Shown here in pieces: positions 3,313 through 27,300 of a stretch of 28,933 nucleotides of DNA. A program made the translations under genes and the position numbers. The stretch is taken from positions 1 through 28,933 of IMG/VR virus record IMGVR_UViG_3300045738_000682. One strand, 5' to 3'. The stretch is from a virus. The first letter of the stretch is position 1. Each line of letters starts with the position of its first letter. Below the pieces are notes generated by a model. The model saw only the letters and a list, made by a program, of their open reading frames with translations. It searched no databases and had not been told where the DNA came from.

Positions 3313-3562
3313 AGATCCGATTTATAAAGACTGGAGAATGAAGGTGAAACGCCGAGATGGCTTTACCTGTCAAATGCCTAACTGCGGATCTAAAAAGAGG
3401 CTACACGCTCACCACATAACAAAATGGGCATCAGCTTCATCCCTTAGATACGAAACTAACAATGGCATAACATTGTGTTACCCGTGCCACAAACAAGTAA
3501 CTGGACATGAAAATATTTACGAGAATTTGTTTAAGGAAATAGTGAGACATAAAAATGTCTAA
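3296..3562 (+). CDS. Small HNH endonuclease, packaging-associated type
   Basis: 88 residues forming little more than one HNH domain. The N-terminal YKDWRMKVKRRDGFTCQ is the classic start; zinc is probably held by C25, C30, C61 and C64 (CQMPNC and CYPCH). The catalytic core is HAHHI (H39, H40) with N56 (NNGITLC) and H65. Such stand-alone HNH proteins sit beside terminase genes in many cos- and pac-type phages, where they help genome cleavage during packaging. Here it is about 1.4 kb upstream of the large terminase. The ribosome binding site is weak (AAGG near 3280), and the gene overlaps both neighbours, suggesting coupled translation. A defence or homing role is less likely given the lack of a DNA-binding extension. 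Confidence 0.85.
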   Translation: MKRNYEDPIYKDWRMKVKRRDGFTCQMPNCGSKKRLHAHHITKWASASSLRYETNNGITLCYPCHKQVTGHENIYENLFKEIVRHKNV

Positions 3563-4061
3563 AGCACCAGCATATACAGTCATCAAAGACAGTAGAGAGC
3601 AGGATGGCTATACCTTTGAAAGGTTCAACGGTAGATACCATCAATGCGACGGCATGGTTGTCAGAAAACTTGATACTGGAGATTATTCTTTAGAAGGGCT
3701 TGAAGACAAGGTTTGTATCGAAAGGAAAGCTAGGGTTTCCGAATTAGCAATAAATCTTGGCAAAGATAAACGCAGGTTTATGGACGAGATTGAACGAATG
3801 AAAGTCTTTCCCTTTAAATTCTTAATACTAGAATTTACTCTAGAGGATGTAATGGATTTTCCCGAGAGGTCAGACATACCAGAGGAGAAGTGGAATTCCA
3901 TTGTTATTACTAACAAGTATATGCTCAAGATGTTAATAGAGTTCCAAATGTATGATGATATTCATGTAATCTTTTGTGGTAATAGAAAAAATGCGAAACT
4001 AGTAGTTTCTAGCATACTCAAAAGGGTCAACGAATACTATTCTGTTGGGAGGAAGAAGTGA
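3555..4061 (+). CDS. ERCC4/XPF-type nuclease
   Basis: 168 residues matching the ERCC4 nuclease fold of XPF, MUS81 and phage relatives, which cut branched or flapped DNA. Visible motifs: DSREQ (D12, R14, E15), TGDYS (G42, D43), IERK (E56, R57, K58) and RRFMDEIERM (74-82). In the canonical GD...ERKxxxD signature the last Asp is replaced here by Ser62, followed by Glu63. The key acidic and Lys residues are otherwise present, so activity is plausible. The C-terminal half (FKFLILEF, IHVIFCGNR) supplies the core strands of the restriction-like fold. There is no helicase or HhH domain. It may resolve branched phage DNA before packaging, since it lies between an HNH nuclease and the packaging genes. 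The start overlaps the HNH stop. Confidence 0.8.
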   Translation: MSKAPAYTVIKDSREQDGYTFERFNGRYHQCDGMVVRKLDTGDYSLEGLEDKVCIERKARVSELAINLGKDKRRFMDEIERMKVFPFKFLILEFTLEDVMDFPERSDIPEEKWNSIVITNKYMLKMLIEFQMYDDIHVIFCGNRKNAKLVVSSILKRVNEYYSVGRKK

Positions 4062-4934: not shown

Positions 4935-6929
4935 ATGAAAAGCAAACTAAAAGAGATAAATGAGGCTTGGTTAAATTTAGATATAAACGACGCCGAACTA
5001 TTCAATCCATTTGATTTCGTTAATTTTAACAACGATGACTACCACTATAGAACTTTGTGGTTAATAACTAGGCCAGAATACTTTTCTTTTTTATGTAAGC
5101 ACATATTCAATATTAGTATATTGCCTTCGCAGGCACTCTTCTTGTGCGAAATATGGGGTAGAAGATTTCCCATGTTAATTGCTAGTCGTGGTTTTGGCAA
5201 GTCTTTTATCTTATCCTTGTATGCACTGCTCCGTGCCTTACTAATACCGGAGAGAAAAGTGGTAGTGGTAGGTGCTGCTTTTAGACAATCTAAAGTGCTG
5301 TTCGAGTATATGGAGACGATTTGGAATAGTGCCCCGATATTTAGGAGCCTGTGCGATGGCAATAGCGGGCCAAGGCGAGATGTTGACCGGTGTGTTATGC
5401 GTATAAACAAGTCTCGTGTGACATGCCTCCCATTGGGTGATGGTACTAAAATTCGTGGTCAGCGTGCCAACGACATCATAAGTGACGAGTTTGCATCAAT
5501 ACCTAGAGATATTTTTGAGACCGTTGTGGCGGGTTTTGCTGCTGTTAGACATGATCCCATAGATAATGTAAAAAGGATTGCCTCAAAGAAAAGGGCAGAT
5601 GAACTTGGAATATCACTGGAGTCCGACGAAGACGCAGTAGCTAGCCATAAAGACAACCAAATAATACTCTCGGGAACTGCCTACTATGATTTTAATCATT
5701 TTGCCGAATACTGGAAAAAGTGGAAAGCTATAATAAACAGTAGGGGTCGAAAGTCGAGACTAAGAGAGGTGTTTGGCGGTGATGACCCGCCCAAAGATTT
5801 CGACTGGAAAGATTATTCTGTGATTAGAGTTCCATACGAACTTTTACCAGAAGGCTTCATGGATGCCGCACAGGTCGCCAGATCAAAAGCTACAGTCCAT
5901 GCTGGTATTTATCAAATGGAGTTTGGAGCATGCTTTACGCGAGACTCTCAGGGCTTTTTCAAGCGTACGCTAATTGAGTCCTGCGTTACAGACGAAAACT
6001 ACAACAACAAGCAACCAATTAAGGATTCTCAGGGTGAACTCATATCATTCCCAGCGAAGCTGATGGGCGATTCAGACAAAGCATATATTTTTGGTGTTGA
6101 CCCTGCATCAGAAGTAGACAATTTTAGTATAGTTGTTCTAGAACTGCATAAAGATCACAGAAGAATAGTTCATTGTTGGACGACCAACCGGTCAGAGCAC
6201 AAGGAAAAGGTTAAGAGTGGATTCTCGAAAGAAAGCGACTTCTATGCATATTGCTCAAGGAAAATCAGAGACCTTATGAAAATCTTCCCGTGTGTACACA
6301 TATCAATGGACGCCCAAGGTGGCGGCATTGCGGTTATGGAATCTCTGCATGATTCAGACAAGATTCAGGATGGAGAGGTGCCCATCTGGCCCACAATAGA
6401 CGAGGAAAAAGAAAAAGATACGGACGACGAGAGAGGTTTGCATATCCTAGAAATGTGCCAGTTTGCCAAATACGATTGGCTGGCAGAAGCAAACCACGGG
6501 CTAAGAAAAGACTTTGAAGATAAAGCGATTCTTTTTCCAATGTTTGACTCTGTTACCCTCGGCATTTCTAACGCCGAAGACGGCTTAAAGGGGCGGACGT
6601 TTGACACTCTCGAACAATGTGTTATGGAAATTGAAGACCTCAAAGATGAACTGACAATGATACAGATAACCCAAACCGCTGGCGGTCGAGACAAATGGGA
6701 CACGCCAGAAACCATTATAGGAACGGGCAAAAAGGGCAAGCTTAGAAAAGATCGTTATTCCTCTTTGGTCATGGCAAACATGGCCGCTAGAATTCTAGCA
6801 AGATTGCCAGAAGCGTCTATCTATAATTTCTATGGGGGTTTTGCAACTGTATCTAAAGAATTAAAAACTAAAGGAGATCTATTTTCCGGCCCAAACTGGT
6901 TTACGGACGGTATGGACGGAGTTTACTAA
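4935..6929 (+). CDS. terL: Terminase large subunit (packaging ATPase and nuclease)
   Basis: 664 residues. The N-terminal ATPase shows a variant Walker A, SRGFGKS (84-90), Walker B IISDEF (181-186) with catalytic Glu185, and the coupling motif SGTAYYD (246-252). The C-terminal RNase H-like nuclease has its acidic residues in FGVDPAS (D389), ISMDAQGGG (D459) and KDRYSS (D606). All core motifs are present, so the enzyme should be active. It pumps DNA into the prohead through the portal and cuts concatemers. The ribosome binding site is weak (GTGAG at 4926-4930), suggesting coupling to the membrane-protein gene just upstream. Portal follows after a 62-base gap holding a promoter-like motif. Confidence 0.95.
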   Translation: MKSKLKEINEAWLNLDINDAELFNPFDFVNFNNDDYHYRTLWLITRPEYFSFLCKHIFNISILPSQALFLCEIWGRRFPMLIASRGFGKSFILSLYALLRALLIPERKVVVVGAAFRQSKVLFEYMETIWNSAPIFRSLCDGNSGPRRDVDRCVMRINKSRVTCLPLGDGTKIRGQRANDIISDEFASIPRDIFETVVAGFAAVRHDPIDNVKRIASKKRADELGISLESDEDAVASHKDNQIILSGTAYYDFNHFAEYWKKWKAIINSRGRKSRLREVFGGDDPPKDFDWKDYSVIRVPYELLPEGFMDAAQVARSKATVHAGIYQMEFGACFTRDSQGFFKRTLIESCVTDENYNNKQPIKDSQGELISFPAKLMGDSDKAYIFGVDPASEVDNFSIVVLELHKDHRRIVHCWTTNRSEHKEKVKSGFSKESDFYAYCSRKIRDLMKIFPCVHISMDAQGGGIAVMESLHDSDKIQDGEVPIWPTIDEEKEKDTDDERGLHILEMCQFAKYDWLAEANHGLRKDFEDKAILFPMFDSVTLGISNAEDGLKGRTFDTLEQCVMEIEDLKDELTMIQITQTAGGRDKWDTPETIIGTGKKGKLRKDRYSSLVMANMAARILARLPEASIYNFYGGFATVSKELKTKGDLFSGPNWFTDGMDGVY

Positions 6930-6991: not shown

Positions 6992-8983
6992 ATGTCTAAT
7001 GACTCTTTTATAACTTGGAATGACAATGATAGCTCTGGCAAGGCTAAAGCCCTTGAGCAATTTTCAGACTCAGTAAACGCTTATGAGGGAATTTCCCGTG
7101 GTAACCGTAGGGATTTTCTGGATGTGGAGCCGAATAGATCTGTCAGACCTGGGTTTACCGGTCAGGATTACTACGCCTTTAGATCAGAGGAGCAGGTTCC
7201 CCGCAAGCAAAAACGCATTATAAAGATGTGCATGGACGCGTATGACAAGGTGGGCATTATAAGGAATGTAATCGACTTAATGGGCGATTTCGGTAGCCAA
7301 GGTATAAACGTGGTGCATGAAGACAGAAGTGTTGAAAAGTTTTTTAAGCAATGGTTTAAGAAGGTAGATGGGAAAGAAAGGTCTGAAAGATTTTTAAATA
7401 ACCTTTATCGTACTGGTCAAGTTTTTACCTATAAAAGTTACGCAAAGATAACGCCAGAGATCAAAAAATACATAAAGTCACTAGGTCACGACATTACTGT
7501 AAAAGTTCCATCCTTTGAGAGTTCTGTGGTACCTTGGAGATATAATTTCTTCAACCCGTTAACAATTGACATAAAGGATGGTGACATCAGCCTATTTCTG
7601 GGCAAGAGGAGCTTTCAAATTCACGCCGGTTCCTTTTTTGATAATTTTAAGAGCGGTGCAATTCCAGTCAAGGTTTTGGAAACTTTACCTCGCAATGTTA
7701 AAATGGCGATCAAGAGGGGTGATAAAAAAATCGTACTAGATCCAGAAAGGCTTTCTGTTTTTTACTACAAAAAAGATGACTGGCAGCAATGGTCACACCC
7801 CCTAGTATATGCTATCCTTGACGACATTATAATGCTAGAAAAAATGCGGCTTGCCGATCTATCCGCGTTAGACGGTGCTATTTCTAATATTAGATTATGG
7901 ACGCTGGGTAGCCTAGAACACAAAATACTTCCAAACAAGACAGCTATTAACAAGCTCCGTAACATTTTAGCTAGCAATGTGGGTGGGGGTACGATGGAGC
8001 TTGTTTGGGGGCCGGAATTAACCTATACTGAATCAAACAGTCAAGTATATAAGTTCCTCGGTTCTGAGAAATATCAATCCGTACTTAATAGTATCTATGC
8101 TGGTCTTGGCGTGCCTCCGACATTAACGGGAATGGCAAGTAATGGTGGTGGATTTACAAACAACTTTATTTCACTCAAGACCTTACTTGAAAGGCTTCAA
8201 TATGGGCGAGATCAACTAACCAAGTTCTGGGAAAAAGAACTAGAGTTTGTTAGAAAATCTATGGGCTTTAGAAAACCAGCACATGTAGTGTTTGATCAAA
8301 TGAGCCTGTCGGATGAAGCCTCCGAAAAGAACCTGTTGATACAGTTAGCAGATAGGGACATAATTAGCCACGAAACCATACTAGAAAGATTTAAAGAGGT
8401 TCCGTCTGTCGAGAAGATGCGTCTCAAAAGAGAGCAGAAGGAAAGGGATAACGATGCCTATCCAGACAAAGCTAGCCCGTTCCATAATGCCAACCATAAG
8501 CAGGAGATTGAAAAAATAGATAAGCAAGCTAAGATCAATAAGACAGAAAAGGAGTCAAAAGAGGTGAAAGACAATGGAAGACCACCCTTTAAGCAAGACG
8601 AAAAACCACGGAAGAAAAGGGTTGATACCCCGAAATCAAAACCGGGCCTAGCGGATATGATCGTCTGGACATCCACGGCCTTTGATTCCCTTTCTTGTAT
8701 TTCTAAGGCTTACCTAGGAACCAAAAGTAAATCAAATATGCGTCAGCTAACTAAGTCTGAGTCCATAGAATTAGAAGACCTTAAGTTACAAGTTTTAAGC
8801 AACCTAGAACCCATGTCTCAAATTACCGATGGCATCATTTTTAACGCCTTAGCGTCAGACCAAAAAACGCCACAGAACTTTAAAAACACGCTAAAATCAT
8901 CTGATATATCTCCCGACACCATGACTATGGACGCGTACAAAAAGGCTGTAGTGGGGGCTTTTGTCGAACATTTCTTTTCTTAA
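6992..8983 (+). CDS. Portal protein
   Basis: 663 residues, following the terminase as portals usually do. It forms the dodecameric ring at the head vertex through which DNA is packed. Supporting features: an N-terminal half with NVIDLMGDFGSQGINVV and a wing-like mixed region, the DDIIMLEKMRLADLSALD helix (about 277-294), the GVPPTLTGMASNGGG loop (about 373-387), and a following long helix region with ISLKTLLERLQYGRDQLTKF. The last 160 residues are longer than a minimal portal, with a Lys-rich linker (about 505-550) and a second helical domain that may act inside the head. The start has AGGA near 6979-6983 and the promoter-like motif 46 bases upstream. Confidence 0.85.
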   Translation: MSNDSFITWNDNDSSGKAKALEQFSDSVNAYEGISRGNRRDFLDVEPNRSVRPGFTGQDYYAFRSEEQVPRKQKRIIKMCMDAYDKVGIIRNVIDLMGDFGSQGINVVHEDRSVEKFFKQWFKKVDGKERSERFLNNLYRTGQVFTYKSYAKITPEIKKYIKSLGHDITVKVPSFESSVVPWRYNFFNPLTIDIKDGDISLFLGKRSFQIHAGSFFDNFKSGAIPVKVLETLPRNVKMAIKRGDKKIVLDPERLSVFYYKKDDWQQWSHPLVYAILDDIIMLEKMRLADLSALDGAISNIRLWTLGSLEHKILPNKTAINKLRNILASNVGGGTMELVWGPELTYTESNSQVYKFLGSEKYQSVLNSIYAGLGVPPTLTGMASNGGGFTNNFISLKTLLERLQYGRDQLTKFWEKELEFVRKSMGFRKPAHVVFDQMSLSDEASEKNLLIQLADRDIISHETILERFKEVPSVEKMRLKREQKERDNDAYPDKASPFHNANHKQEIEKIDKQAKINKTEKESKEVKDNGRPPFKQDEKPRKKRVDTPKSKPGLADMIVWTSTAFDSLSCISKAYLGTKSKSNMRQLTKSESIELEDLKLQVLSNLEPMSQITDGIIFNALASDQKTPQNFKNTLKSSDISPDTMTMDAYKKAVVGAFVEHFFS

Positions 8984-9041: not shown

Positions 9042-10505
9042 ATGAGTATAAAAATTTTCCAACGAGAAATAGATGACGGCCTTGGCGAGGTTGTTAAAAG
9101 CACCGCTAGCGTTGCATATTGCTCGGAAGCCACGATACATAAAGGCTCTGTAGACACAGTAAGAGAAGTTATTGAAAATCAAGATATTTTAGATAAAATC
9201 CTTGCTGAAAACAAAGATCAGATTGACCTACACTACATAGAGTCTATTTTGGTTTCTACGGGCTGGAACAAAAATGACGACGTATTTCTCAGTGAAGCTA
9301 CTTGGTCGGCCAGAAACACGCCGGAAGACAAACAGTTTAACTTTATGCACGATGAGAACGATATCATCGGGCACATCACCGGCAGCTACGTTCTGGATAA
9401 GAACGGAAAATCGGTTGCCGACGATGAAGCTATGCCAGAAGAGTTTGATATTATAACTCAGGCTGTTCTTTATAATAGCTGGACCGAATCAGAGAACAAA
9501 GATCGGATGGGGAAAATTATAGCCGAAATAGAAGAAGGGGAGTGGTTTGTCTCTATGGAGTGCCTTTTTTCTGGTTTTGACTACGCCTTAACCAACTCGG
9601 ATGGCGAAAAGAAACTTTTAGCTAGAAGTGAAGATTCTGCGTTCTTAACAAAACATCTCAGGGCCTACGGAGGTTCTGGGGAGTACGAGGGTTACAAGGT
9701 AGGACGTGCTCTATCTAACATCTCGTTTTCCGGTAAAGGGTTGGTTTCTAAACCCGCCAACCCCAGAAGCATTATACTAAATAGTAAAAGCACAGCACAA
9801 TTTAATGTAACAGAGATGAATTCTAACCTTTCTATAGTAGGAGATCTTAATATGTCAGATTCGACACTGTTGGAACAACAGTTGGCCGAAGTGCAGTCTG
9901 AGCTTGTTAAAGCTAAGGCTGAAAACGAGGCTATTAAAGCGAAAATCGAAGACGCAAAAGACAAAGAGTTTGCATCTACGATTGAGGCTTTTGAAGACGA
10001 TTCTCAAAATCGTGCCCAAGAAGTCGTTGGTCTAGAAGAGACCATTAAAACTCAGAAGGCTAACATTGCCGAGCTTGAAGACTCTTTGGTCCAAAGGGCA
10101 GAAGAGCTTACCGAAGCAATGAACGCTTTGGGAGAGCAGAAGCAACGAGAGAGGCAGCAAAAGCGTCTGGCTAGTCTTGTCGAGGCAGGCTTTAATGACG
10201 AAGAAGCAGAAGAGTCACTTGCTCTGTATGATGCGTTGGATGATGAAGCTTTTGACGCTATCGTTGCCAAGTTTGACTGGTTCGATAAGAAGAAGAAGAA
10301 GAAGGACGAAGATAAGGACAAGGACAAAGAAAAGAAGGATGCTAAGTCCGAAGACGCCGAAGAAGCTGAAGTTACAGCGGAAGCTTTTGAGGAGCTAGAA
10401 TCTTCTGAGGCAACATTGGTTGAGTCCGAAGAAGTAGACGAACTCGAAACAACCAGAGCGAGCGTTGCTGACTGGTTTGCTAATCACGTACTTTCTACCA
10501 AGTAA
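9042..10505 (+). CDS. Capsid maturation protease fused to scaffold
   Basis: 487 residues. Residues about 1-250 look like a herpesvirus/HK97-type prohead protease: FMHDENDIIGHI carries the likely catalytic His103, GEWFVSMECLFSGFDY the likely nucleophile Ser171, and ALSNISFSGKGLVSKPANP is the usual end of the protease core. Residues about 271-487 form a scaffold: a long coiled coil (LLEQQLAEVQSELVKAKAEN onward), then a highly charged Lys/Asp/Glu region (about 416-470, with KKKKKKDEDKDKDK) and a helical tail ADWFANHVL. Position between portal and capsid fits. The protease would cleave scaffold and capsid N-termini during maturation. An internal start at Met271 probably yields scaffold alone. Protease family identity is moderately sure; the third catalytic residue is not assigned. 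Confidence 0.82.
   Translation: MSIKIFQREIDDGLGEVVKSTASVAYCSEATIHKGSVDTVREVIENQDILDKILAENKDQIDLHYIESILVSTGWNKNDDVFLSEATWSARNTPEDKQFNFMHDENDIIGHITGSYVLDKNGKSVADDEAMPEEFDIITQAVLYNSWTESENKDRMGKIIAEIEEGEWFVSMECLFSGFDYALTNSDGEKKLLARSEDSAFLTKHLRAYGGSGEYEGYKVGRALSNISFSGKGLVSKPANPRSIILNSKSTAQFNVTEMNSNLSIVGDLNMSDSTLLEQQLAEVQSELVKAKAENEAIKAKIEDAKDKEFASTIEAFEDDSQNRAQEVVGLEETIKTQKANIAELEDSLVQRAEELTEAMNALGEQKQRERQQKRLASLVEAGFNDEEAEESLALYDALDDEAFDAIVAKFDWFDKKKKKKDEDKDKDKEKKDAKSEDAEEAEVTAEAFEELESSEATLVESEEVDELETTRASVADWFANHVLSTK
9839..9843 (+). promoter_or_regulatory. Internal ribosome binding site for nested scaffold
   Basis: AGGAG lies 8 bases before an in-frame ATG at 9852 (codon 271 of the protease-scaffold gene). 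Its strength and spacing equal those of true gene starts here, and it falls exactly at the protease-scaffold junction. Confidence 0.55.
9852..10505 (+). CDS. Nested scaffold protein from internal start
   Basis: In-frame internal gene of 217 residues beginning MSDSTLLEQQ, sharing its stop with the protease-scaffold gene. It would be made from AGGAG at 9839-9843, 8 bases upstream. The product consists only of the coiled coil, the Lys/Asp/Glu-rich region and the C-terminal helix, the expected content of a free assembly scaffold. Lambda C/Nu3 and several other phages make scaffold this way so that it outnumbers protease. The start is inferred from sequence; expression is not shown. Confidence 0.55.
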   Translation: MSDSTLLEQQLAEVQSELVKAKAENEAIKAKIEDAKDKEFASTIEAFEDDSQNRAQEVVGLEETIKTQKANIAELEDSLVQRAEELTEAMNALGEQKQRERQQKRLASLVEAGFNDEEAEESLALYDALDDEAFDAIVAKFDWFDKKKKKKDEDKDKDKEKKDAKSEDAEEAEVTAEAFEELESSEATLVESEEVDELETTRASVADWFANHVLSTK

Positions 10506-10535: not shown

Positions 10536-11033
10536 ATGGCTCTTAAAGCAGATAGATATGAAGAATCCACAGATATCAGCTTCTTCTCGTCGACTACTGG
10601 CGTTAGAGGAATGGTTGTTTGTTTGGACGCTGCGGCAGTTGCTGGGGCGTCAGGGGCAGGTATGGATCAGGGCGAAAACACGGTTTCGCCAATTGCGGCC
10701 CTCCCTGCTTCAGTTCCCGTTGGCATTATTCTTAATGATGTTGTCAACAAAGATTTAACCAGAACGCATCTTAATCAATATAAAGATGAAGTGCAGTTGG
10801 GCGGCAAGGTTACCGTTATGACTCGTGGGTGGGTTGTAACAAACAACATCACTGGCACTCCAAAGGCAGGCGACGTGGCTTATGCCTCCAATACCATTGG
10901 TACGATTGATGTTGTCGCTTCCAACGCGGCAGCGACTGGAAATTTGGCTATTGGTCGCTGGATGTCTCGCAAGGACGCCGATGGTTATGCCAAGTTGTAT
11001 GTTAACCTTCCTAATCACGGCGGCTCCGCTTAA
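10536..11033 (+). CDS. Candidate head decoration protein
   Basis: 165 residues just upstream of the capsid gene, where head decoration or stabilising proteins commonly lie. The sequence is Ala-, Gly-, Val- and Thr-rich and beta-like, with VPVGIILNDVVNKDLTRTHL, GGKVTVMTRGWVVTNNI, PKAGDVAYAS and a final strand YAKLYVNLPN. This alternation suits a small beta-tulip or barrel such as those that bind capsid surfaces. A strong AAAGGAG lies before the ATG, and codons favour the GCT/GGC/CGT types also used by the capsid gene, fitting high expression. No promoter or terminator separates it from its neighbours. Decoration role is inferred from position and composition; another abundant head protein is possible. 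Confidence 0.6.
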   Translation: MALKADRYEESTDISFFSSTTGVRGMVVCLDAAAVAGASGAGMDQGENTVSPIAALPASVPVGIILNDVVNKDLTRTHLNQYKDEVQLGGKVTVMTRGWVVTNNITGTPKAGDVAYASNTIGTIDVVASNAAATGNLAIGRWMSRKDADGYAKLYVNLPNHGGSA

Positions 11034-11060: not shown

Positions 11061-12068
11061 ATGTCATATACAGAAAGACCTAGTGATGAATTTATCGCAC
11101 TTCTGAAAAGAACTGGCGATAGTGATCAGAATGTGGCTTACGCGGCACAGCGTGAGTTTGCAAAAGCTTTGGAACTTCCTTTGCGTAAGGGCGTTCTTCT
11201 TGGAAATATCCTTGGTGATATTTTTGAAACCATCGTTGTCGAACCGGGTGCTTCTACCGAATATCCGCTCGACTTGATTTCCCCGGGCCTTGAAGGTGAG
11301 CACGTTGCCTACACCAATCCCGGTCACGGTCGTATTCCTGAAAGAGCAGTAGAAAGTGACTACGTGTCGATTCCTACTTACAGCATTACAAGTAGTATTG
11401 ATTACTTGCTTCGTTTTGCTCGTGAAGCTCGTTGGGATGTGGCTGCTCGTGCTATGCAGGTTTTGGAAGCTGGCTTTGTAAAGAAGATGAACGACGACGG
11501 CTGGCATACACTACTTGCCGCTGGTGTTGATCGTAACATCTTGGTTTATGATGGCGATGCTACCGCTGGCCTGTTTAGCAAGCGACTTGTTTCTTTGATG
11601 CAGACTGTTATGCGTCGAAATGCTGGTGGCAACACTGGTTCTGCCAATCGTGGCCGTTTGACTGATCTTTATGTTTCTCCAGAGGCGTTGGAAGATGTCC
11701 GAAACTGGGGTCTCGATCAGATTGACGAAGTTACGCGTCGTGAGATTTATACTGCCTCTGAGGGCGGTGCTCCAATTACCAGAATCTTTGGTGTCAATCT
11801 CCACGACCTAGATGAGCTTGGAGAGGGTCAGGAATACCAAACGTTCTTCACTGATGGACTAGGCGGTGCCGTTCAGGCTGCCGACCTTGAGTTGGTGGTT
11901 GGTCTTGATCAGTCGTCGAAAGACAGCTTTGTCATGCCAATGAAGCAGCAATTGGAAGTATTTGAAGATCCGACTCTCCACAGACAGCAACGTGCTGGTT
12001 ATTACGGATTCGCTGAACTTGGATTTGGCGTCCTTGATAATAGAAGGGTCATCTTGGGTTCCCTCTAA
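11061..12068 (+). CDS. Major capsid protein
   Basis: 335 residues, placed after protease-scaffold and decoration genes and ended by a terminator, the normal site for the major capsid gene. The protein reads as an HK97-type fold: helical N-terminus (residues 1-45), then an extended and beta region (IFETIVVEPGASTEYPLDLI), a long spine-helix candidate (about 120-155, with FAREARWDVAARAMQVLEAG), and a C-terminal P-domain-like part with LYVSPEALEDVRNW and GVNLHDLDELGEG. AAAGGAG lies 10 bases before the ATG. Codon choice is biased (many CGT for Arg), consistent with very high expression. I cannot name the closest capsid family from sequence alone. Confidence 0.85.
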   Translation: MSYTERPSDEFIALLKRTGDSDQNVAYAAQREFAKALELPLRKGVLLGNILGDIFETIVVEPGASTEYPLDLISPGLEGEHVAYTNPGHGRIPERAVESDYVSIPTYSITSSIDYLLRFAREARWDVAARAMQVLEAGFVKKMNDDGWHTLLAAGVDRNILVYDGDATAGLFSKRLVSLMQTVMRRNAGGNTGSANRGRLTDLYVSPEALEDVRNWGLDQIDEVTRREIYTASEGGAPITRIFGVNLHDLDELGEGQEYQTFFTDGLGGAVQAADLELVVGLDQSSKDSFVMPMKQQLEVFEDPTLHRQQRAGYYGFAELGFGVLDNRRVILGSL

Positions 12069-12679: not shown

Positions 12680-14275
12680 ATGATTTTAACAAAATCAGAG
12701 TATCTTAGCTCTATAAATGCACTTCTTCCAGATAATTCCACCCAAGAAATCTCCCCCCTCGACCTTAGAACAAGTTTAACACATATTGTCGATTCCGTTC
12801 ATAACTTTTTGGACGGAAAAAGGATAAATACCCTAAACTTTTCTAGTCCAGATACGAGAACAACTCGGGGTGGCGACCATGCACTTAACAATATGTCGCT
12901 GGCGGGAAGATCTAGTGTAGATAACTCTGCTTTTGGATATGCCTCGCTGAGAGGCAATTACAACGGTATAGAAAATACCGCCATTGGTTCCCACTCTCTT
13001 TCTTGCAATTTGTTTGGAAGCAACAACACGGCGGTTGGTTTTCAGTCATTAGCTGGCAATACGGATGGGTCTGGCAATGTTGGAATAGGTAGCTATGCCC
13101 TAAACAATGGAAAAGAGGGTGATTTTAATATAGCTATCGGTCATGGTGCTGGATACTATATCGGGAAAAATGATAACTATAAGTTTTATTTAGGCTCTTT
13201 TGGTATTGGTTCTGGTGATCTGTGTGTTGATGATATACCAGTAACAAGCGGTGATGCACCGCTTCTCTTTGGCAACCTAGACCCCACTAATCATCAATTG
13301 GGGGTTGGAGTTAACTCCCTACATAACTATGGGATGGTTCAAGTCTCTGGAGATATTTCTCCTTCAATTAGTGGTTCTTTTTCTCTAGGTAACAGCCAAT
13401 ACTCATGGAATTCCATTAACGAGGAAGTCTTCTTTTCCGGTGGGGCAGTTGGTGTTGGCGGTCAACCTTCCGGTGCGGCACAAAATGTGGCTGACGGAAG
13501 GCTTACCGTTTACGGAGATTTAGTACCCAGTCTAGACGAGAGATATGCCCTCGGTCATCCAAACTTGAAGTGGGATGCATACCTAAATGATGTAATCGTT
13601 AGCGGCAATCTAACAGTTAATGATTTACAATATACCACAATAAATCAATGCTTGTATGACTGTAAAACTCTACACTTGGCAACAAGCGGTTTTTGTGATC
13701 CTACCGACGAGGGTTTTCACAACTCTTCTGTGTGTGGATTTCTTGATGACACCTCCCTAGATGGTGCTGGACTAGAAGTGCATTCTAGTGGTGCGACCTA
13801 TCGTAGAGATTACAGATTCATTTACAGATACCCAGACCCCGCATTGGACTGTTTAGAGGTAGACAGTCCGTTTTCGCGTTCAAGGTGGGAGTCAAACATT
13901 TCCCTTGAGGTGGAAAGCGGGAGGGCTTTCATCGGTGAAAGAGTTCTGGGCAGAAATAAATTAGCAAATATTATTCAAAGCGGCTGCATGGGCATCTTCT
14001 TAGAGCCATATGCGGTATCTGGCCAAAGAGTTATTGTAGGACAAGAGCCACACGTAAACAATAGTTACGCAACGCTTCAGGATATAAACTTTATTTCTCG
14101 CTCTGGAACACACCTAGGTGTGGACGGCAATCCTTCGGGTTATGATTACTCTGTTATGTATGGAACCGTTGACTCGGGCGTCAAGATTACTCATCAACTA
14201 GCAAGTAGAATTAAAACCTCCTCAAGCATACGTGGCTTTAGTATTGTTTATCATGACGAATTTGATCAGGAATAA
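12680..14275 (+). CDS. Tail fibre protein with 17-residue beta-roll repeats
   Basis: 531 residues. The N-terminus (1-45, with INALLPDNSTQEISPLDLR and IVDSVHNFL) looks like a virion-attachment module. Residues about 82-160 hold five repeats of the NTAIGxxSL type, with the Asn at 82, 99, 116, 133 and 150, exactly 17 residues apart. This resembles the trimeric YadA-like head and related phage fibres. Two later modules, DISPSISGSFSLGNSQYSW and DLVPSLDERYALGHPNLKW, are related to each other and are followed by VIVSGNLTVNDL, a common shaft motif. Residues about 330-531 are a distinct, Ser- and Gly-rich beta region of unknown fold, possibly receptor-binding. The ribosome binding site is weak (TAGG), so coupling to the previous gene is likely. 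Confidence 0.75.
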   Translation: MILTKSEYLSSINALLPDNSTQEISPLDLRTSLTHIVDSVHNFLDGKRINTLNFSSPDTRTTRGGDHALNNMSLAGRSSVDNSAFGYASLRGNYNGIENTAIGSHSLSCNLFGSNNTAVGFQSLAGNTDGSGNVGIGSYALNNGKEGDFNIAIGHGAGYYIGKNDNYKFYLGSFGIGSGDLCVDDIPVTSGDAPLLFGNLDPTNHQLGVGVNSLHNYGMVQVSGDISPSISGSFSLGNSQYSWNSINEEVFFSGGAVGVGGQPSGAAQNVADGRLTVYGDLVPSLDERYALGHPNLKWDAYLNDVIVSGNLTVNDLQYTTINQCLYDCKTLHLATSGFCDPTDEGFHNSSVCGFLDDTSLDGAGLEVHSSGATYRRDYRFIYRYPDPALDCLEVDSPFSRSRWESNISLEVESGRAFIGERVLGRNKLANIIQSGCMGIFLEPYAVSGQRVIVGQEPHVNNSYATLQDINFISRSGTHLGVDGNPSGYDYSVMYGTVDSGVKITHQLASRIKTSSSIRGFSIVYHDEFDQE

Positions 14276-19900: not shown

Positions 19901-21378
19901 TTGTAGCTTCTGGGGTTCCACCAGTCAACGCTAATTCGCTTGCCCAAGTCCGTGTTTCCTGGCACTCGCTCAACCGAGTTCCTTACGCTGGTGGTTCCGT
20001 TGATGGTTCTGCCGTGCCACCACGGTATGATGGTACGCAGTCTTTGGATCTACTGCAACTGGGCATCGGCTACACTCTTGATCCGGTTCATATTGTGGCC
20101 ATAAACCCCAGCCAACCCTGTGATGGCCCTCTCCCAGACTTTGATCTGACGGGAAGAGGACACACGGCTGACCACTGGCATGATCCAAAAGCTGGTGAGT
20201 GTCCGCATATAACTTTCCAAAAGAAGATGCTCTATTATCGTGAGAAAAGGCACGTTATTGCTGTAGCCGCGAAAAATGACGCCACCGGCGATTTTGGTTT
20301 TTGGTTTTACAAATTCCAATTAAATGACATGAACCTAAGAAACAAATGGCAGCCGATGTTAGGCTCTTATTTTTCGTGGCACCACCTTCAAGAAAACTCT
20401 ACCCGCAGCTATCGCCAGCCACACCCCAGCGACACCCCGTTTGTTCCCGTGCCCGAGGTGAGCGAGGGGCTGCGGATTGGCAATTATCATAGGGTGGAAT
20501 TGACCAAGGCTATGTTTAGCGAAGATGGCAATATGTTGGTAGCAATTTATAACACGTATGACAGAGATGCATATGGCTGGAAGGATGGTGGCGTATTCAA
20601 TCGGGCCGTAATTTATACGTTTAGGTCTTTCCCCGCTGTTGCGACTGGATACGCCCCCAACGGGGAGGGTTATTTCAAGATTGTTAACAGAGTCACCTTG
20701 AATAACGAGTCCCTATTTGTTACTGGGGCTGCATTAAGCTGTGATGGTAATAGATTGCTTATAGAAGAGCATATACCCACCGAGGAAGTTGACGCTCAAC
20801 CGATGCCTCAGACTTCACGAATGTATGGTAATGGTAGGATTAAACGATTTAGGATGATGGTTTGGGATGGATTGCAATGGATAGAAAGGGCTCGATTCAA
20901 CCTCGCTGACGAAGAAAGCCCCCTGTCCGGTCGCCCACTAGCGGACACGAAATTCCTTTATAGGACATTGACAACAAATTGGGATTGCTCTAAATTTTCT
21001 ATTGTTGCAAATGAATCAGGGGGTGGTTCGGGTGGTACCTCAGCCATCCAAAAGGGCAACATATGGACGTTCTTTTTTGATGGAGATGAAATCAAACCCA
21101 TACACCGCATGACTGGCCCCGCTTACCGATATGGAAATGAATATTGGCCATATCCTGAAGGCTATCCCCGATCTTCAGAAGGAACCACCGCCTCTCCGCC
21201 TTTGCTGCGAGATAGAGACTTTAGAGGGGATATATCAATGTCTTTGGATGGCAAGATGCTGCATATGTATACTAGGAGCAGGAATTTGATAGTACAGGGA
21301 CCGGGAGCCGCCAAGGGGCAAAATGATCAAATGATAGAAGAGTATTTCCTTAGAACTTTTAAATGGAAATCTAGTTAA
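16993..21378 (+). CDS. Giant adhesin: vWA-like domain plus seven-bladed FG-GAP-type propeller
   Basis: 1461 residues. (1) A Cys-rich N-terminus (13 Cys in 240 residues, beginning CHTCC) encloses a vWA-like domain, about 28-165, with LVCVALVDSN and the pseudo-MIDAS VNDAGSMT at 135-142. (2) Residues about 313-738 carry seven blades, each with W-Q-x-G, DI-GE, SG-SVSLS-DGTVVAIGAP and HVRVYAW, as in FG-GAP/integrin alpha propellers. (3) Residues about 740-1100 are unrecognised, rich in His, Tyr and Trp. (4) About 1170-1461 contain four weak blade-like units (MFSEDGNMLVAI, ALSCDGNRLLI, NWDCSKFSIVA, SMSLDGKMLHM). AAGGAG overlaps the previous stop, 6 bases from the ATG. Likely role: host binding at the tail tip. 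Domain identities are by pattern; glycan versus protein receptor is unknown. Confidence 0.72.
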   Translation: MGRPNTCHTCCPTDPIVDRDASECEKLVCVALVDSNAESAETFEAKMAQWIEAYPSRLLFVMDVASTENVSYPDNFKTWAHAFSYFTEMSEKVIRDNGSLTSRTDVWDKITTIVNSKSTDIQALFTAAKEVSIYVNDAGSMTAEQVAGAVALLKTEIVDAGKKVVDSLAGLGGDVLCPFSFEQCCINEAASDLRVLCGHDACFDPDSSTIHWGLKPAGAFVVDDPCDPATGDPTDACTPCPDVKTSDHTAKYKAYVKAADGQILDYPTINYTIQARNSSDDDWQDIYNLPDALSNVEQSLDLLLKIWGGSKQWQKMGGNIFGEAEGDESGFSVSLSDDGTVVAIGAPRNSGGAPLFPPNAGRGHVRVYAWDGSEWTQRGNDIDGEADDDASGHSVSLSGDGTVVAIGAPGSDGAGSNAGRVKVHAWNGSAWTQRGGDIDGEMIDDVSGWSVSLSSDGTVVAIGATGNDGVGSNAGHVRVYAWDGSEWTQRGNDIDGEAEGDESGFSVSLSDDGTVVAIGAPKNESPRPPFDHVYNDAGHVRVYAWNGSAWVQRGNDIDGEMLYDWSGHSVSLSGDGTVVAIGAIYNDGNGNASGHVRVYAWNGIAWIQRGNDIDGEEEMDQSGFSVSLSNDGTIVAIGSPENGHDYSGNVAGWRAMGEGQVEVYAWMEGLGGGAWVQVGADIEGEVKMGKSGFSVSLVSSSDSVTVAFGSPQFYASAPSVAGPNPLGGWVSVFNFVKSSACHPLISQYGSIGSCEEYVDVPIGGTCSRRVFKRDFRIKAETEGLDAIYSSVFKLYKYIYQKDKDSGSGSWKSCSDLADGGSVRYGGTNTYIYRTYLNNLESHDYKNSPQDPRLAVWPAGNNLVVDNAPLGWMHQYTGKDAIHHNRVVRASTSHYNETLTHAIEFNLDKDCNYTWPEANSRVNAHPCPDWDGDRPTIHDTGWEKLKFEDSCGYVLDGPNTISTNDRASVTFVASGVPPVNANSLAQVRVSWHSLNRVPYAGGSVDGSAVPPRYDGTQSLDLLQLGIGYTLDPVHIVAINPSQPCDGPLPDFDLTGRGHTADHWHDPKAGECPHITFQKKMLYYREKRHVIAVAAKNDATGDFGFWFYKFQLNDMNLRNKWQPMLGSYFSWHHLQENSTRSYRQPHPSDTPFVPVPEVSEGLRIGNYHRVELTKAMFSEDGNMLVAIYNTYDRDAYGWKDGGVFNRAVIYTFRSFPAVATGYAPNGEGYFKIVNRVTLNNESLFVTGAALSCDGNRLLIEEHIPTEEVDAQPMPQTSRMYGNGRIKRFRMMVWDGLQWIERARFNLADEESPLSGRPLADTKFLYRTLTTNWDCSKFSIVANESGGGSGGTSAIQKGNIWTFFFDGDEIKPIHRMTGPAYRYGNEYWPYPEGYPRSSEGTTASPPLLRDRDFRGDISMSLDGKMLHMYTRSRNLIVQGPGAAKGQNDQMIEEYFLRTFKWKSS
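17956..18034 (+). repeat. 79-bp exact direct repeat, copy A (blade 1)
   Basis: Identical base for base to 18478-18556. It begins GGCGAAGCGGAGGGTGATGA and ends GGAGCACCTA, covering the core strands of blade 1. Confidence 0.9.
18478..18556 (+). repeat. 79-bp exact direct repeat, copy B (blade 4)
   Basis: Identical to 17956-18034 and 522 bases (174 codons) downstream, in the same frame. Recombination between the copies would remove or add exactly three blades without a frameshift. Confidence 0.9.
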
Positions 21379-24300
21379 TGTTTAAAATATCAGATAGAGT
21401 AAAAGAAATATCGACAACGACTGGTAGCGGATCAGTTGTCTTGGGCGGTGCGTATGGTTCATTTCGGGCGTTTTCGGAAACGCTTAGTAGTGGAGATGTT
21501 ACGTTTTACTGCATCGAAAACCTGACTAGTTGGGAGGTTGGTAGCGGTACGTATGATTCGTCATCTAACTCCCTATCTAGAGATCATGTTCTTTCAAGTT
21601 CTGACAGCGGCGACAAGATTAATCTTGGCGGAACGTCCACGGTTTTCTGTACCCTACCGGCAGATAGAACTTTTGTTTTAGATCCAGACGGAGAAACCAC
21701 TGTCCTTGGTTTGCTTGGCGGTAGCGGCATTGTATCAACGCTACGTGCAAGCGACCTTTTAGTGAAAAACAACGCGGTTGTTAGTGGTGTAACCAACCTG
21801 AAGGGCGATGTTACGGCGGACCAAGACATAACCGTAACACAAGAAATAAACGCGAACAATATTAACTCGTCTGGGGAGATAACCTCCAGTGGGTTCTTAA
21901 CACTCCTTCGCCCTGATTCTGCGGGTAATTATTTCCATGCCTACAAGAATGACGTTTCTAAACAAACGATTGCGTTACATACAGACGGCAGTGCTTCCCC
22001 GCTGTGGAAGCTTGGGCTGAAGACATCTCCGTCTAGCCAGACAGATGCACCAACATTTGCCTATATTTATGCTAGGGATGGATCTGCTGGTATAGTTGGA
22101 AATACATCAAACTATGTGTCTATATCAAGTTCTGACGGACTTACAACACATCACGATTCTCACAGTATCTTTATTGTTGACTCTGACAATGGCGGTATTT
22201 TTGATGCTAAGTCTACCACTAGTCCTGCCCTGAGAGTTCAGGGTGCGGCCCTGATGACCGGCGACCTACAGAGGTGGGAAAAGTCTGACAGTACTGTTTT
22301 ATCGGTTGTAGATAGTGGTGGTAAGGTTGGTATATTAACCTCTTCTCCCTCATATGAACTTGAGGTTGCAGGAACTGGTTCATTCGATACGGTACGGTGG
22401 GCTGATGGAACTATTCAAACCACAGCCGCTGCTGGGGGAGATAGCTTACCAGCCGCTAGTGGTGCTAACATAACTCAAAATACTGTCGATATTGGTACGG
22501 TTTCTGGATTGATACCTAGTTCAAGTTCTTTCCTTCCGGCGGCTAGCGGCGGTACGATTACTGCTATTAGCGGATGGGCTGGATCAACAATAACAAACGA
22601 GATTGCTTCATTAGTAGATAGTGCCCCAGCAGCCCTAGATACCCTCAATGAGATAGCTGCTGCCATTAACGATGATGCAAATATAGCAACTACGCTAACG
22701 AATTCAATTACTTCTAATACAACGGCTATTAACGCCTCTGGAAATTATCTTCTTGGTGAGATTCGTGATAACTCGGCCAGCGGGACAACGAACGCATCGA
22801 ATATAACCTCTAATACTTCCCTTGTCCACTCGTCGGGTAATTACCTTTTAGGAGAGGTTAGAGCTAACTCGGCAAGTGGATCTACCAACGCGTCGAGCAT
22901 AACCTCTAATACAGCTTTAGTCCACTCTTCGGGGAATTACTTACTTGGGGAGGTTAGGGCAAACTCAGCCAGTGGGACGCAGAATGCTTCAGATATAGTT
23001 GTTGTTTCTGGCTTGACCGGTGGTGGTGGATTACCAGTAGCTAGTGGTGCTAAGATTACAGCAAACACTACTTTAATCCATTCGTCAGGCAATTACCTTC
23101 TCGGTGAAATTAGAGCCAATTCAACCAGTGGGACAGCGAATGCATCGAATATAACCTCGAACACTTCACTTGTTCATTCTTCCGGTAACTACCTACTTGG
23201 GGAGATTAGGGCTAATACTGCAAGCGGAACAGCCATAAGTGGATGGGCCGGATCTACCATAACAAATGAAATTAATTCGTTGATAGATGGTGCTCCCGGT
23301 ACTTTAGATACACTTAACGAAATAGCTGCCGCTATTAATGACGACGCGAATATATCCACTACATTAACTAATTCAATCACGGCGAACACCACGCTTATAC
23401 ATTCTTCAGGTAACTATCTACTTGGAGAGGTTAGGGCAAATTCAGCTAGTGGGACAACCAACGCATCGAACATAATAGCAAATACATCCCTTGTTCACTC
23501 GTCGGGGAACTACCTTCTCGGAGAGGTTAGAGCAAATTCAGCCAGCGGGACGACTAATGCGTCAAGCATCACAGCAAACTCTGTCAGCGGAGTAGCGATT
23601 TCTGGTATAGCTGCTTATGCTTCTGGTATTTTTAACGGAGCAATTGATGAAGCTAATTTAAAGGTAACGAACACCCCCACTGATAACTACCTCTTATCCT
23701 ATGATCACGCCTCGACTGGTTTCACTTGGGTCGCAGCCGCTGGTGGGGGCAGTATGTCTAACTTCATTATCACTGATGGCTCCACACCACAAACAGTTGA
23801 TGACGGCGAAACAATCACGTTTACGGACGGCACTGGTGCCGAGTTTGTAACTTCGGCCACGAACACCGTAACTGTAAATAGTGTAGATAGCGAAATCGTT
23901 CATGATAATCTTAGTGGGTTTGTTGCAAATGAACATCTTGATTGGACTAATAGTGTTGGCACGATACACGCAGGCAACTATACAGATACAGTTTATACTC
24001 TACCAGAAGCAAACGCAACTACAAAGGGTGGAATAGAATTATTCAGCAATACTGACCAATCTGTTGCCGCTACTGCCGTAAGTGCCACAGCAGCGAGAAC
24101 TTATGGTTTACAATTAAATTCTGATGGACAGGGGGTTGTCAATGTACCTTGGGTTGATACTAATACAACTTATTCGGTAGGCGATGGTGGTTTAACAACT
24201 AATGATTTTACTAGTGCTGACCACACTAAGTTAGATGGTATAGAAGCAAGTGCTACTGCCGATCAAACTAATGGAGAAATAAAAACTGCTATTGAAGCTG

Positions 24301-27300
24301 GTACGGACATTGCTCTTGGGGGTAATCCTACAACTACAACTCAATCAGCAGCTAATAACTCAACTAGAATAGCAACGACTGCTTATGCAGATGCTGCTGC
24401 TGCTGCGGTAGTAGACTCGGCTCCCGGAGCACTTAACACTTTGAATGAACTAGCTGCTGCCCTAGGCGATGATGCTAGTTTCTCAACAACTGTAACCAAC
24501 TTGATTGCTACCAAGATGCCTTTAGCTGGTGGTGCATTTTCTGGAGCAGTCACAACTAATAGTACTTTTGATGGGGTAGACATAGCTGTCAGAGATGCAA
24601 TCTTAACAACCACAACAACTACTGCTAATGCGGCTTTGCCAAAAACAGGCGGTGCAATGACAGGTGCTATTACTACTAATAGTACATTTGACGGAGTAGA
24701 TATAGCTACAAGAGACGCTGTGTTAACTTCAACTACTACAACAGCAAACGCAGCTTTACCCAAAGCTGGCGGAGCAATGGTTGGGGCAATTACAACTAAC
24801 TCTACATTTGATGGTAGAGACGTAGCTACAGATGGAACTAAATTAGATGCTATAGAGGCAAGTGCTACGGCAGACCAGAGTGATTCAGAAATAAAAACTC
24901 TTTTAGAAGATGGTATTGATAGTGTTCATTATGTAGACGGAAGTATTGACCTAATTCATCTGGCAGCAGACTCTGTTGATGGCACAAAGATAGCAGACAA
25001 CGCAATAAACTCAGAACACTATACAGATGGGTCAATTGATGAACCCCATTTAAATGTAACGAATACTCCCTCTGACAACTTCCTCTTATCCTATGACCTT
25101 GCTACGACTGGTTTCACTTGGGTTGCAGCCGCCGGTGGCGGCAGCATGTCTAGCTTCATCATCACCGATGGTTCCACGTCGCAAACAGTAGACGACGGTG
25201 AAACAATCACGTTTTCGGATGGTACTGGTGCCGAGTTTGTAACCTCGGCTACGAACACGGTAACTGTAAATAGTGTAGACAGCGAAATTGTACATGATAA
25301 TCTTAGCGGATTTGTAGCCGCCGAGCATCTTGACTGGACTGCTAACGTTGGCACTATACACGCAGGCAATTATACCGATACTAATACACAGCTATCGCAG
25401 GAGCAGGTCGAAGATTATGTTGGCGGGATGCTTGGGGGAACTGAGACCCTTATCGCCGTTACTTATCAAGACTCCACTGGCGATATCGACTTCGTGGTTG
25501 ACAATGATCTTTCTAACTATGACAATTCCTCTTCAGGGTTCATCACGGCGACCCTTACCACGGAAGCGGTTCAAGATATCGCTGGGGGTTTAATTACAGT
25601 CGCAGGAGGGACTAAAACAGGTATATCTATTACCTATGATGACACCAACAATAACATGGACTTCGTTGTTGATCATGATGCTGCCAGCAATTTTGTAGCG
25701 AACGAGCATGTTGATCATACCTCTGTAACACTTACTGCTGGAGACGGACTAACTGGTGGTGGAACGATAGCTGCTAACAGAAGCTTTGCTGTAGACATCA
25801 ACGGAACTGCGGATTTAGCCAGTCCTGCTGTCGCTGATGAACTATTGATTTCTGATGCAGATGATAGCAACACCGTTAAAAAAGCAGACTTGGCTAGTAT
25901 TGTAAATCTTGCAGACCACGACGCATTAACTAATTTTGTAACCGCCGAGCACGTTGATTGGGCTGCGTCCAGTGCTGGCACAATACATGCAACTAATTAT
26001 ACTGATACAACTTATTCGGTAGGCGATGGTGGATTAACTCAAATCAACTTTACTTCAGCGGACAACAGTAAGCTAGATGGTATTGATGCTAGTGCTAACA
26101 ATTACACTCTACCAAGTGCCTCTCTTACAGTGGTTGGTGGTGTCGAGTTAGCTACAACCGGAGAAACAACTACAGGAACTGACGCAACTAGGGCCGTTAC
26201 ACCAGCAGGTGTACAAGCAGCTATAGATGCATTGGTTGGTGGTGCTCCGGGAGCATTAGACACCCTAAATGAATTGGCAGCAGCAATAAACGATGATGCA
26301 AGTTATGCAAGTACAATAACAACCGCATTAGCACTCAAGTCAACTATAGCAAGCCCAACGTTTACAGGTACAGTTGCAATTCCGAGTATATCTGACTTAG
26401 AAGCGGCTGTTACAGCTAACACAGCTAAAGCAACAAACGTATCTACAAATCTTTCTGCTACAGCTAATGGGACTTCCCTAACTGTAGAGTCTAGTGATGG
26501 CACCAATGTCGCTCTTCCAGCTGCTACAATATCAGCTTGGGGAGTAATGAGTGATGACCAAGCAACTAAACTAGATGGTATAGAAGCTAGTGCTGATGTA
26601 ACTGATGCCACCAATGTAGCCGCAGCGGGTGCGTTGATGGACAGTGAGCTAACTGACATAGCTGCTGTAAAAGCTACTGAAGACCCGTTCACAGCGGCTC
26701 TCTTATCAAAGCTAAACGCTATAGAGGCAAGTGCGGATGTAACTGATGCCACCAATGTAGCCGCAGCGGGTGCGTTGATGGATTCAGAAGTAACAAATCT
26801 CGCATTTGTAAAAGCCTTAGCTAAAGGTATTTCAGATGGAAATGTTTTAACAGCCAATGACGTAGTAGCAGACGATGATTTTCTTAGAATCAATGGAACA
26901 GAAGTAGAAGGTTTGACCGTAGCTGAAGTCCTAACTGCATTAAATGTAGAAGCAGGAGCAGATGTAACTGATGCCACCAACGTAACTGCTGCTGGTGCAT
27001 TAATGGACAGCGAATTAGCTGGAATTGTAGCAGTCAAAGCGACTACAGGTACTTTCCTATCAGCAGATGAAAGCAAACTAGACGGTATAGAAGCTAGTGC
27101 TGATGTAACAGACGCTACCAATGTAACCGCAGCAGGTGCATTGATGGATAGTGAATGTGCTGGTCTTGCAGCCTTAAAATTAACTACTGGCACTTTTCTA
27201 ACAGCAGACCAAACCAAACTAGATGGTATAGAGACAAGTGCAGATGTGACTGATGCCACCAATGTAACCGCAGCCGGTGCATTAATGGACTCAGAGGTTA

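Follow-up and report, generated by a model that had tools for sequence, protein, structure and literature searches.

A start signal conserved at the RNA level predicts a scaffold gene nested in the capsid-protease gene of a mostly marine phage family

In phage T4 the capsid protease (gp21) and the scaffold (gp22) are encoded by separate genes. In phage Mu, an annotated internal start (Z) lying in frame within the protease gene (I) gives the C-terminal part of the protein a second time, and has the sequence CAGGAG-AACAAACCC-ATG with a 9-nt spacer. Phage lambda carries an in-frame, 3'-coterminal scaffold gene (nu3) within its protease gene (C), an overlap described by Shaw and Murialdo (1980, as cited in PMC8508860); as a Shine-Dalgarno control lambda nu3 is weak, its GGGAG being distant from the annotated ATG. 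The UL26.5 gene of herpes simplex virus (HSV) starts midway through UL26 and encodes the C-terminal 329 residues of the latter (PMC12474303). The DNA analysed here (the window) is an entire virus record of 28,933 bases, and its ORF 9042-10505 very probably represents a further case, i.e. a conserved nested scaffold gene inside a capsid-protease gene, of the lambda C/Nu3, Mu I/Z and HSV UL26/UL26.5 kind. Given these precedents the mechanism is of a known kind, and it is the window family that is new to it; no report of a nested start in this phage family was found in the literature consulted, most of it outside subscription journals.

According to the proposed mechanism, the ORF would give rise to two proteins ending at one stop. 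Translation from nt 9042 would yield a capsid-assembly protease fused to a scaffold, and independent initiation at the internal AGGAG/ATG (9839/9852), nearly the signal of Mu Z, would yield a 217-residue scaffold alone, which we infer to be made and to outnumber the fusion. Together with the capsid protein, the free scaffold would form the core of the procapsid. Fusion molecules, fewer in number, would, we infer, co-assemble by way of the scaffold part common to both proteins, which would bring the protease into the shell to degrade the scaffold ahead of DNA packaging. The features of the locus are collected in Table 1. The order portal, protease-scaffold ORF, cement and capsid corresponds to that of lambda, in which C/nu3 are followed by D and E (decoration and major capsid proteins), and it was universal where testable: a portal gene precedes the ORF in 182/182 testable loci, the cement gene lies downstream of it in 185/185, and a major capsid gene is present in 152/152. 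Elsewhere in the window, an ERCC4-type nuclease gene (nt 3555-4061; PF02732, phrog_3490) is found a short way upstream of the packaging genes, the region 12680-14275 encodes repeats of the GSNNTAVGFQSLAG/GSGNVGIGSYAL type, similar to the head repeats of trimeric adhesins, and is probably a fibre gene, and a minus-strand open frame of 410 codons (26303-27535), lying inside a 2411-codon gene (21378-28613), is probably a shadow frame.

Table 1. Features of the protease-scaffold locus and neighbouring genes in the window
Feature	Position (nt)	Strand	Basis or remark
Terminase gene	4935-6929		phrog_2; upstream of the 9042-10505 ORF
Portal protein gene, probable	6992..8983	+	phrog_64, E 8e-5
Full-length protease-scaffold fusion ORF, 487 aa	9042..10505	+	equal extent in all homologue loci examined
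Protease domain, residues 59-250, predicted gp21/assemblin fold	9216..9791	+	model pLDDT 84.8; Z 9.7, Z 9.0
His103, invariant, candidate catalytic residue	9348..9350	+	205/205; putative role
His111, invariant, candidate catalytic residue	9372..9374	+	205/205; putative role
Ser171, invariant (VSME motif), candidate nucleophile	9552..9554	+	205/205; putative role
Internal Shine-Dalgarno sequence AGGAG	9839..9843	+	[A/G]GGAG in 204/204 homologues, frozen synonymous codons
Internal start codon ATG (Met271)	9852..9854	+	ATG in 204/204; GTG in MaeS
Nested gene, 217 aa, predicted capsid scaffold	9852..10505	+	frame and stop of the long ORF; composition, helices
Long helix / coiled coil, residues 276-381	9867..10184	+	DSSP on low-confidence model
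Conserved C-terminal helix, residues 467-482	10440..10487	+	Trp478 in 199/205; possible capsid-protein contact
Capsid cement protein gene	10536..11033	+	PF22758, PF23982, both above cut-off
Major capsid protein gene, probable	11061..12068	+	weak similarity to phage G major head protein, E 2e-4

The N-terminal part of the fusion is supported as a capsid maturation protease with a predicted gp21/assemblin fold. Residues 1-250 were modelled from an alignment with 97 relatives, and the model matched the VZV protease (VIA Z 9.7) over 115 residues at 2.6 A and T4 gp21 (5jbl; Z 9.0) over 126 residues at 3.1 A; the best 37 structural rows were all herpes or T4 capsid proteases, the next row, an unrelated one, falling to Z 5.1. 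Foldseek alone gave a weaker result (E 0.013), and its matches in a viral library included many prohead proteases. Besides the residues listed in Table 1, His205 is likewise invariant and is a further candidate for a catalytic role. Neither the window protein nor 97 protease domains gave a phage protease family when scanned against Pfam and PHROGs, whereas Mu I matches PF10123, and the S49 profile was not matched in Pfam scans of the window protein and 97 members; curated profiles may not extend as far as this family. The likeness to lambda C/Nu3 proposed in an earlier note on this sequence holds for the nested, 3'-coterminal arrangement but apparently does not extend to the enzyme, as lambda C is annotated as an S49 peptidase while the window protease is modelled with the gp21/assemblin fold, making HSV UL26/UL26.5, which shares both the protease fold and a nested start, the closer parallel by fold. 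The herpesvirus pair differs in belonging to a eukaryotic virus, the signal in the phages being a Shine-Dalgarno (SD) site, and no sequence-level relationship was found between the window family and UL26/UL26.5. T4 gp21 resembles the window protease in its fold and differs in gene arrangement. A protease fold match to the window protein was also seen in Bacillus phage G (L350:2341-3243), in a protein annotated only as gp19, which stands alone at 300 aa and carries no scaffold tail.

The AGGAG and the in-frame ATG (Met271) to which the earlier note drew attention were confirmed, with a spacer of 8 nt and 217 codons from codon 271 to the shared stop. The site is also placed as that note described, at the boundary between the protease and the coiled coil: the last predicted protease strand comprises residues 245-249, residues 236-274 are of low confidence, and the long predicted helix begins at residue 276. 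In the window sequence alone, the motif is within chance expectation and unremarkable. Among the window's 644 ATGs, 28 show anti-SD pairing as strong or stronger, and within ORF 9042-10505 itself Met172 reaches -7.6 kcal/mol compared to -7.3 at Met271. Synonymous resampling retained the motif in 10.8% of draws, and 11-13% of synonymous recodings gave one as good. Relatives must decide the question.

Scans of IMG/VR with close members of the family returned at least about 600 relatives per scan, and a scan of GTDB genomes added L262 (60% identity), L263 (43%, from a Flavobacteriales bin) and L264 (37%, from a Gemmataceae bin). When used as a query, L263 opened a second clade. After leaving out identical ORFs and those shorter than 400 codons, 146 ORFs of clade 1 (the window and L262 among them) and 58 of clade 2 were kept among the matches listed. 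As the sequences were collected with a small number of similarity queries, relatives of great divergence are under-represented. Sequence counts do not equal independent events, for which tree-based counts of changes correct in part. The Gemmataceae-bin protein found no match in IMG/VR, and a tblastn search of 50,697 phage records with the full window protein was likewise negative.

Among the matches listed, the ATG at the Met271 column is invariant and is preceded by [A/G]GGAG in all 204 distinct ORFs of the two clades; loss of the site in close homologues was looked for and no instance was found. At other internal Met columns, a 5-base SD at proper spacing occurs in 4 of 143 at most. The spacer is 8 nt in all 146 members of clade 1, and in clade 2 it is 6 nt in 54 and 9 nt in 4. 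The codon for Gly267 in clade 1 is GGA in 146/146, with 0 parsimony changes over a tree length of 24.8 substitutions per site, compared to 31-53 changes in each of 16 other conserved Gly columns. The base 5' of this GGA is A in 144 of the 146, both exceptions being Met codons, even while the residue that it helps to encode varies among I, K, L, V, Q, T, E and S. Clade 2 has a different junction, [AAG/AGG/CAG] GAG NNN NNN ATG (with one extra codon in four members), in which the I-G-[D/E] residues of clade 1 are absent and the SD occupies another reading frame, spanning a K/R/Q codon and a Glu codon. The latter is GAG in 58/58 with 0 changes, while other Glu columns of this clade show 2-11. A signal kept in a different frame with other residues is not a protein motif, and an RNA signal that outlives the protein sequence in this way argues against a protein-motif cause, a cleavage site included. 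The more distant L264 has AAGGAG-AGCAAGTCA-ATG (codons ACC AAG GAG AGC AAG TCA ATG), an arrangement obscured by the automatic alignment, which put a Val into the start column and so produced the single V among 205. The residue following the start Met is S, A, T or P in 204/204, in keeping with a genuine N-terminus from which Met is removed. In the alignment check that the earlier note had proposed, the AGGAG/ATG is thus clearly conserved at the RNA level beyond what the protein needs, with no synonymous drift in clade 1, a switch of frame in clade 2 and a GTG start in Microcystis phage MaeS (see below).

Other RNA features of the region were also considered. Folding of five stretches gave no excess stability in those containing the site (the window, L263 and the Bacillus phage Stahl), the other two (L040 and L019) having begun too far upstream to include it, which makes this a thin test, and a sequestering hairpin in clade 2 (UCCU/AGGA) was dropped since L263 did not fold in this way. 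An internal promoter was likewise rejected: a simple scan detected no promoter near the nested start, where the positions that are conserved belong to the SD and the start codon. A separate feature of clade 2 (L263, L268-L347) is a set of frozen codons, TTC TCT GGT and GTT, aligned to window residues 226-243 and lying about 90-140 nt before the nested ATG; several are identical in 58/58, whereas clade 1 varies freely at these positions, and an additional RNA-level constraint is possible.

The 217-residue product would contain no Cys or Pro, has 19% Glu and a net charge of -32, and is mostly helical in a low-confidence model. From its position, composition, helices and gene order, and from precedent, it is probably a capsid scaffold. 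A real nested start with a product of some other role, such as a protease inhibitor or targeting partner, is improbable. The 217 residues gave no significant match to a scaffold or any other family in Pfam and PHROGs (only PF04977, DivIC, below the cut-off), which suits that reading, and a sequence search of the PDB returned only coiled coils and other rows at chance level. Against it, the window has no long plus-strand ORF between the portal and capsid genes besides the fusion ORF and the cement gene, the product is acidic and helical, and the products of the characterised nested cases compared (lambda Nu3, Mu Z and HSV VP22a) are all scaffolds. Within the scaffold part, a run of AAG codons (nt 10288-10312) encodes a Lys-rich linker, the length of which varies widely among relatives. 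Production of the free scaffold in excess, as the earlier note predicted, is plausible. The nested SD is predicted to be stronger than that of the protease itself in 143 of the 146 clade-1 loci, while in clade 2 this is so in just 13 of 58, and since the nested SD is there usually predicted to be the weaker, an excess is not favoured in that clade.

A free scaffold could also arise by self-cleavage of the fusion, in which case the I-G-D/E preceding Met271 would be a cleavage site of the T4 gp21 type (I/L-x-E). Capsid proteases of T4 and of herpesviruses do cleave their own fusions or scaffolds. Most clade-1 members carry an I-G-[D/E] where the two domains meet, and the herpes protease has a described R site (PMC12474303). 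A cleavage site, however, requires neither GGA in preference to GGT, GGC or GGG, nor a preceding A whatever the residue, and clade 2 has [K/R/Q]-E-N in place of the motif but keeps the SD. The frozen synonymous codons, together with a clade that lacks the motif, led to rejection of I-G-E as a T4-type cleavage motif, and self-cleavage as the source is regarded as very unlikely, although cleavage elsewhere in the fusion could occur alongside an internal start. Least likely of all is a role for the SD-like sequence in braking elongation, without any initiation, to let the protease fold ahead of synthesis of the coiled coil: its location exactly at the domain boundary would suit such a role, but pausing requires no invariant start codon (ATG in 204/204, GTG in MaeS), no start-like spacing and no S/A/T/P thereafter.

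Of 97 window-family proteins, 45 weakly matched phrog_16389 (best E 7e-4), a hypothetical protein of the Bacillus Slashvirus phages Stahl, Slash, Staley and Stills, and of Microcystis phage MaeS. These proteins resemble the window protein in their position after the portal, their protease-like N-terminus with SM and PANP motifs, their helical tail and, in MaeS, Stahl and Stills, a nested SD and start at the boundary between protease and tail; they differ in being shorter (339-354 aa), and their sequence similarity to it is remote. The boundary reads AAGGAGG...GTG (AAGGAGGAAAAAGTC-GTG) in MaeS, AGGAGG...ATG (AGGAGGTATTGGC-ATG) in Stahl and AAGGAGG...ATG (AAGGAGGTCATGGGAAA-ATG) in Stills. The in-frame ATG of Stills is 11 nt from the AGGAG, a long spacer that counts against a nested start in this phage. 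In the same region of Stills (L349:833-853, AAGGAGGTC-ATG-GGAAAATGA), an out-of-frame ATG just 3' of the SD opens a frame of three codons ending in a TGA that overlaps the in-frame ATG of the nested start, a layout that may allow reinitiation. The database records of the Slashvirus phages and MaeS show a single hypothetical CDS with no nested gene, so standard annotation misses it there, in agreement with the earlier note's statement on gene calling. It is tempting to view the nested start as an ancestral, selected part of a gp21/assemblin module, shared by descent among the marine phages, Slashvirus and MaeS, and ultimately with UL26/UL26.5, with the signal drifting between frames while the output is kept, but this is improbable.

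Few nested protease/scaffold genes are known, and the current study extends them by a large, apparently uncultured and mostly marine phage family, to whose head protease-scaffold gene no curated family of phage proteases or scaffolds gave a match. Natural variants of the start signal are now available in the hundreds, and an unannotated scaffold gene is predicted in the Bacillus Slashvirus phages, which can be cultured. A signal kept in two reading frames represents a clear case of an RNA-level signal constraining protein sequence, and could help to train gene callers in the recognition of nested genes.
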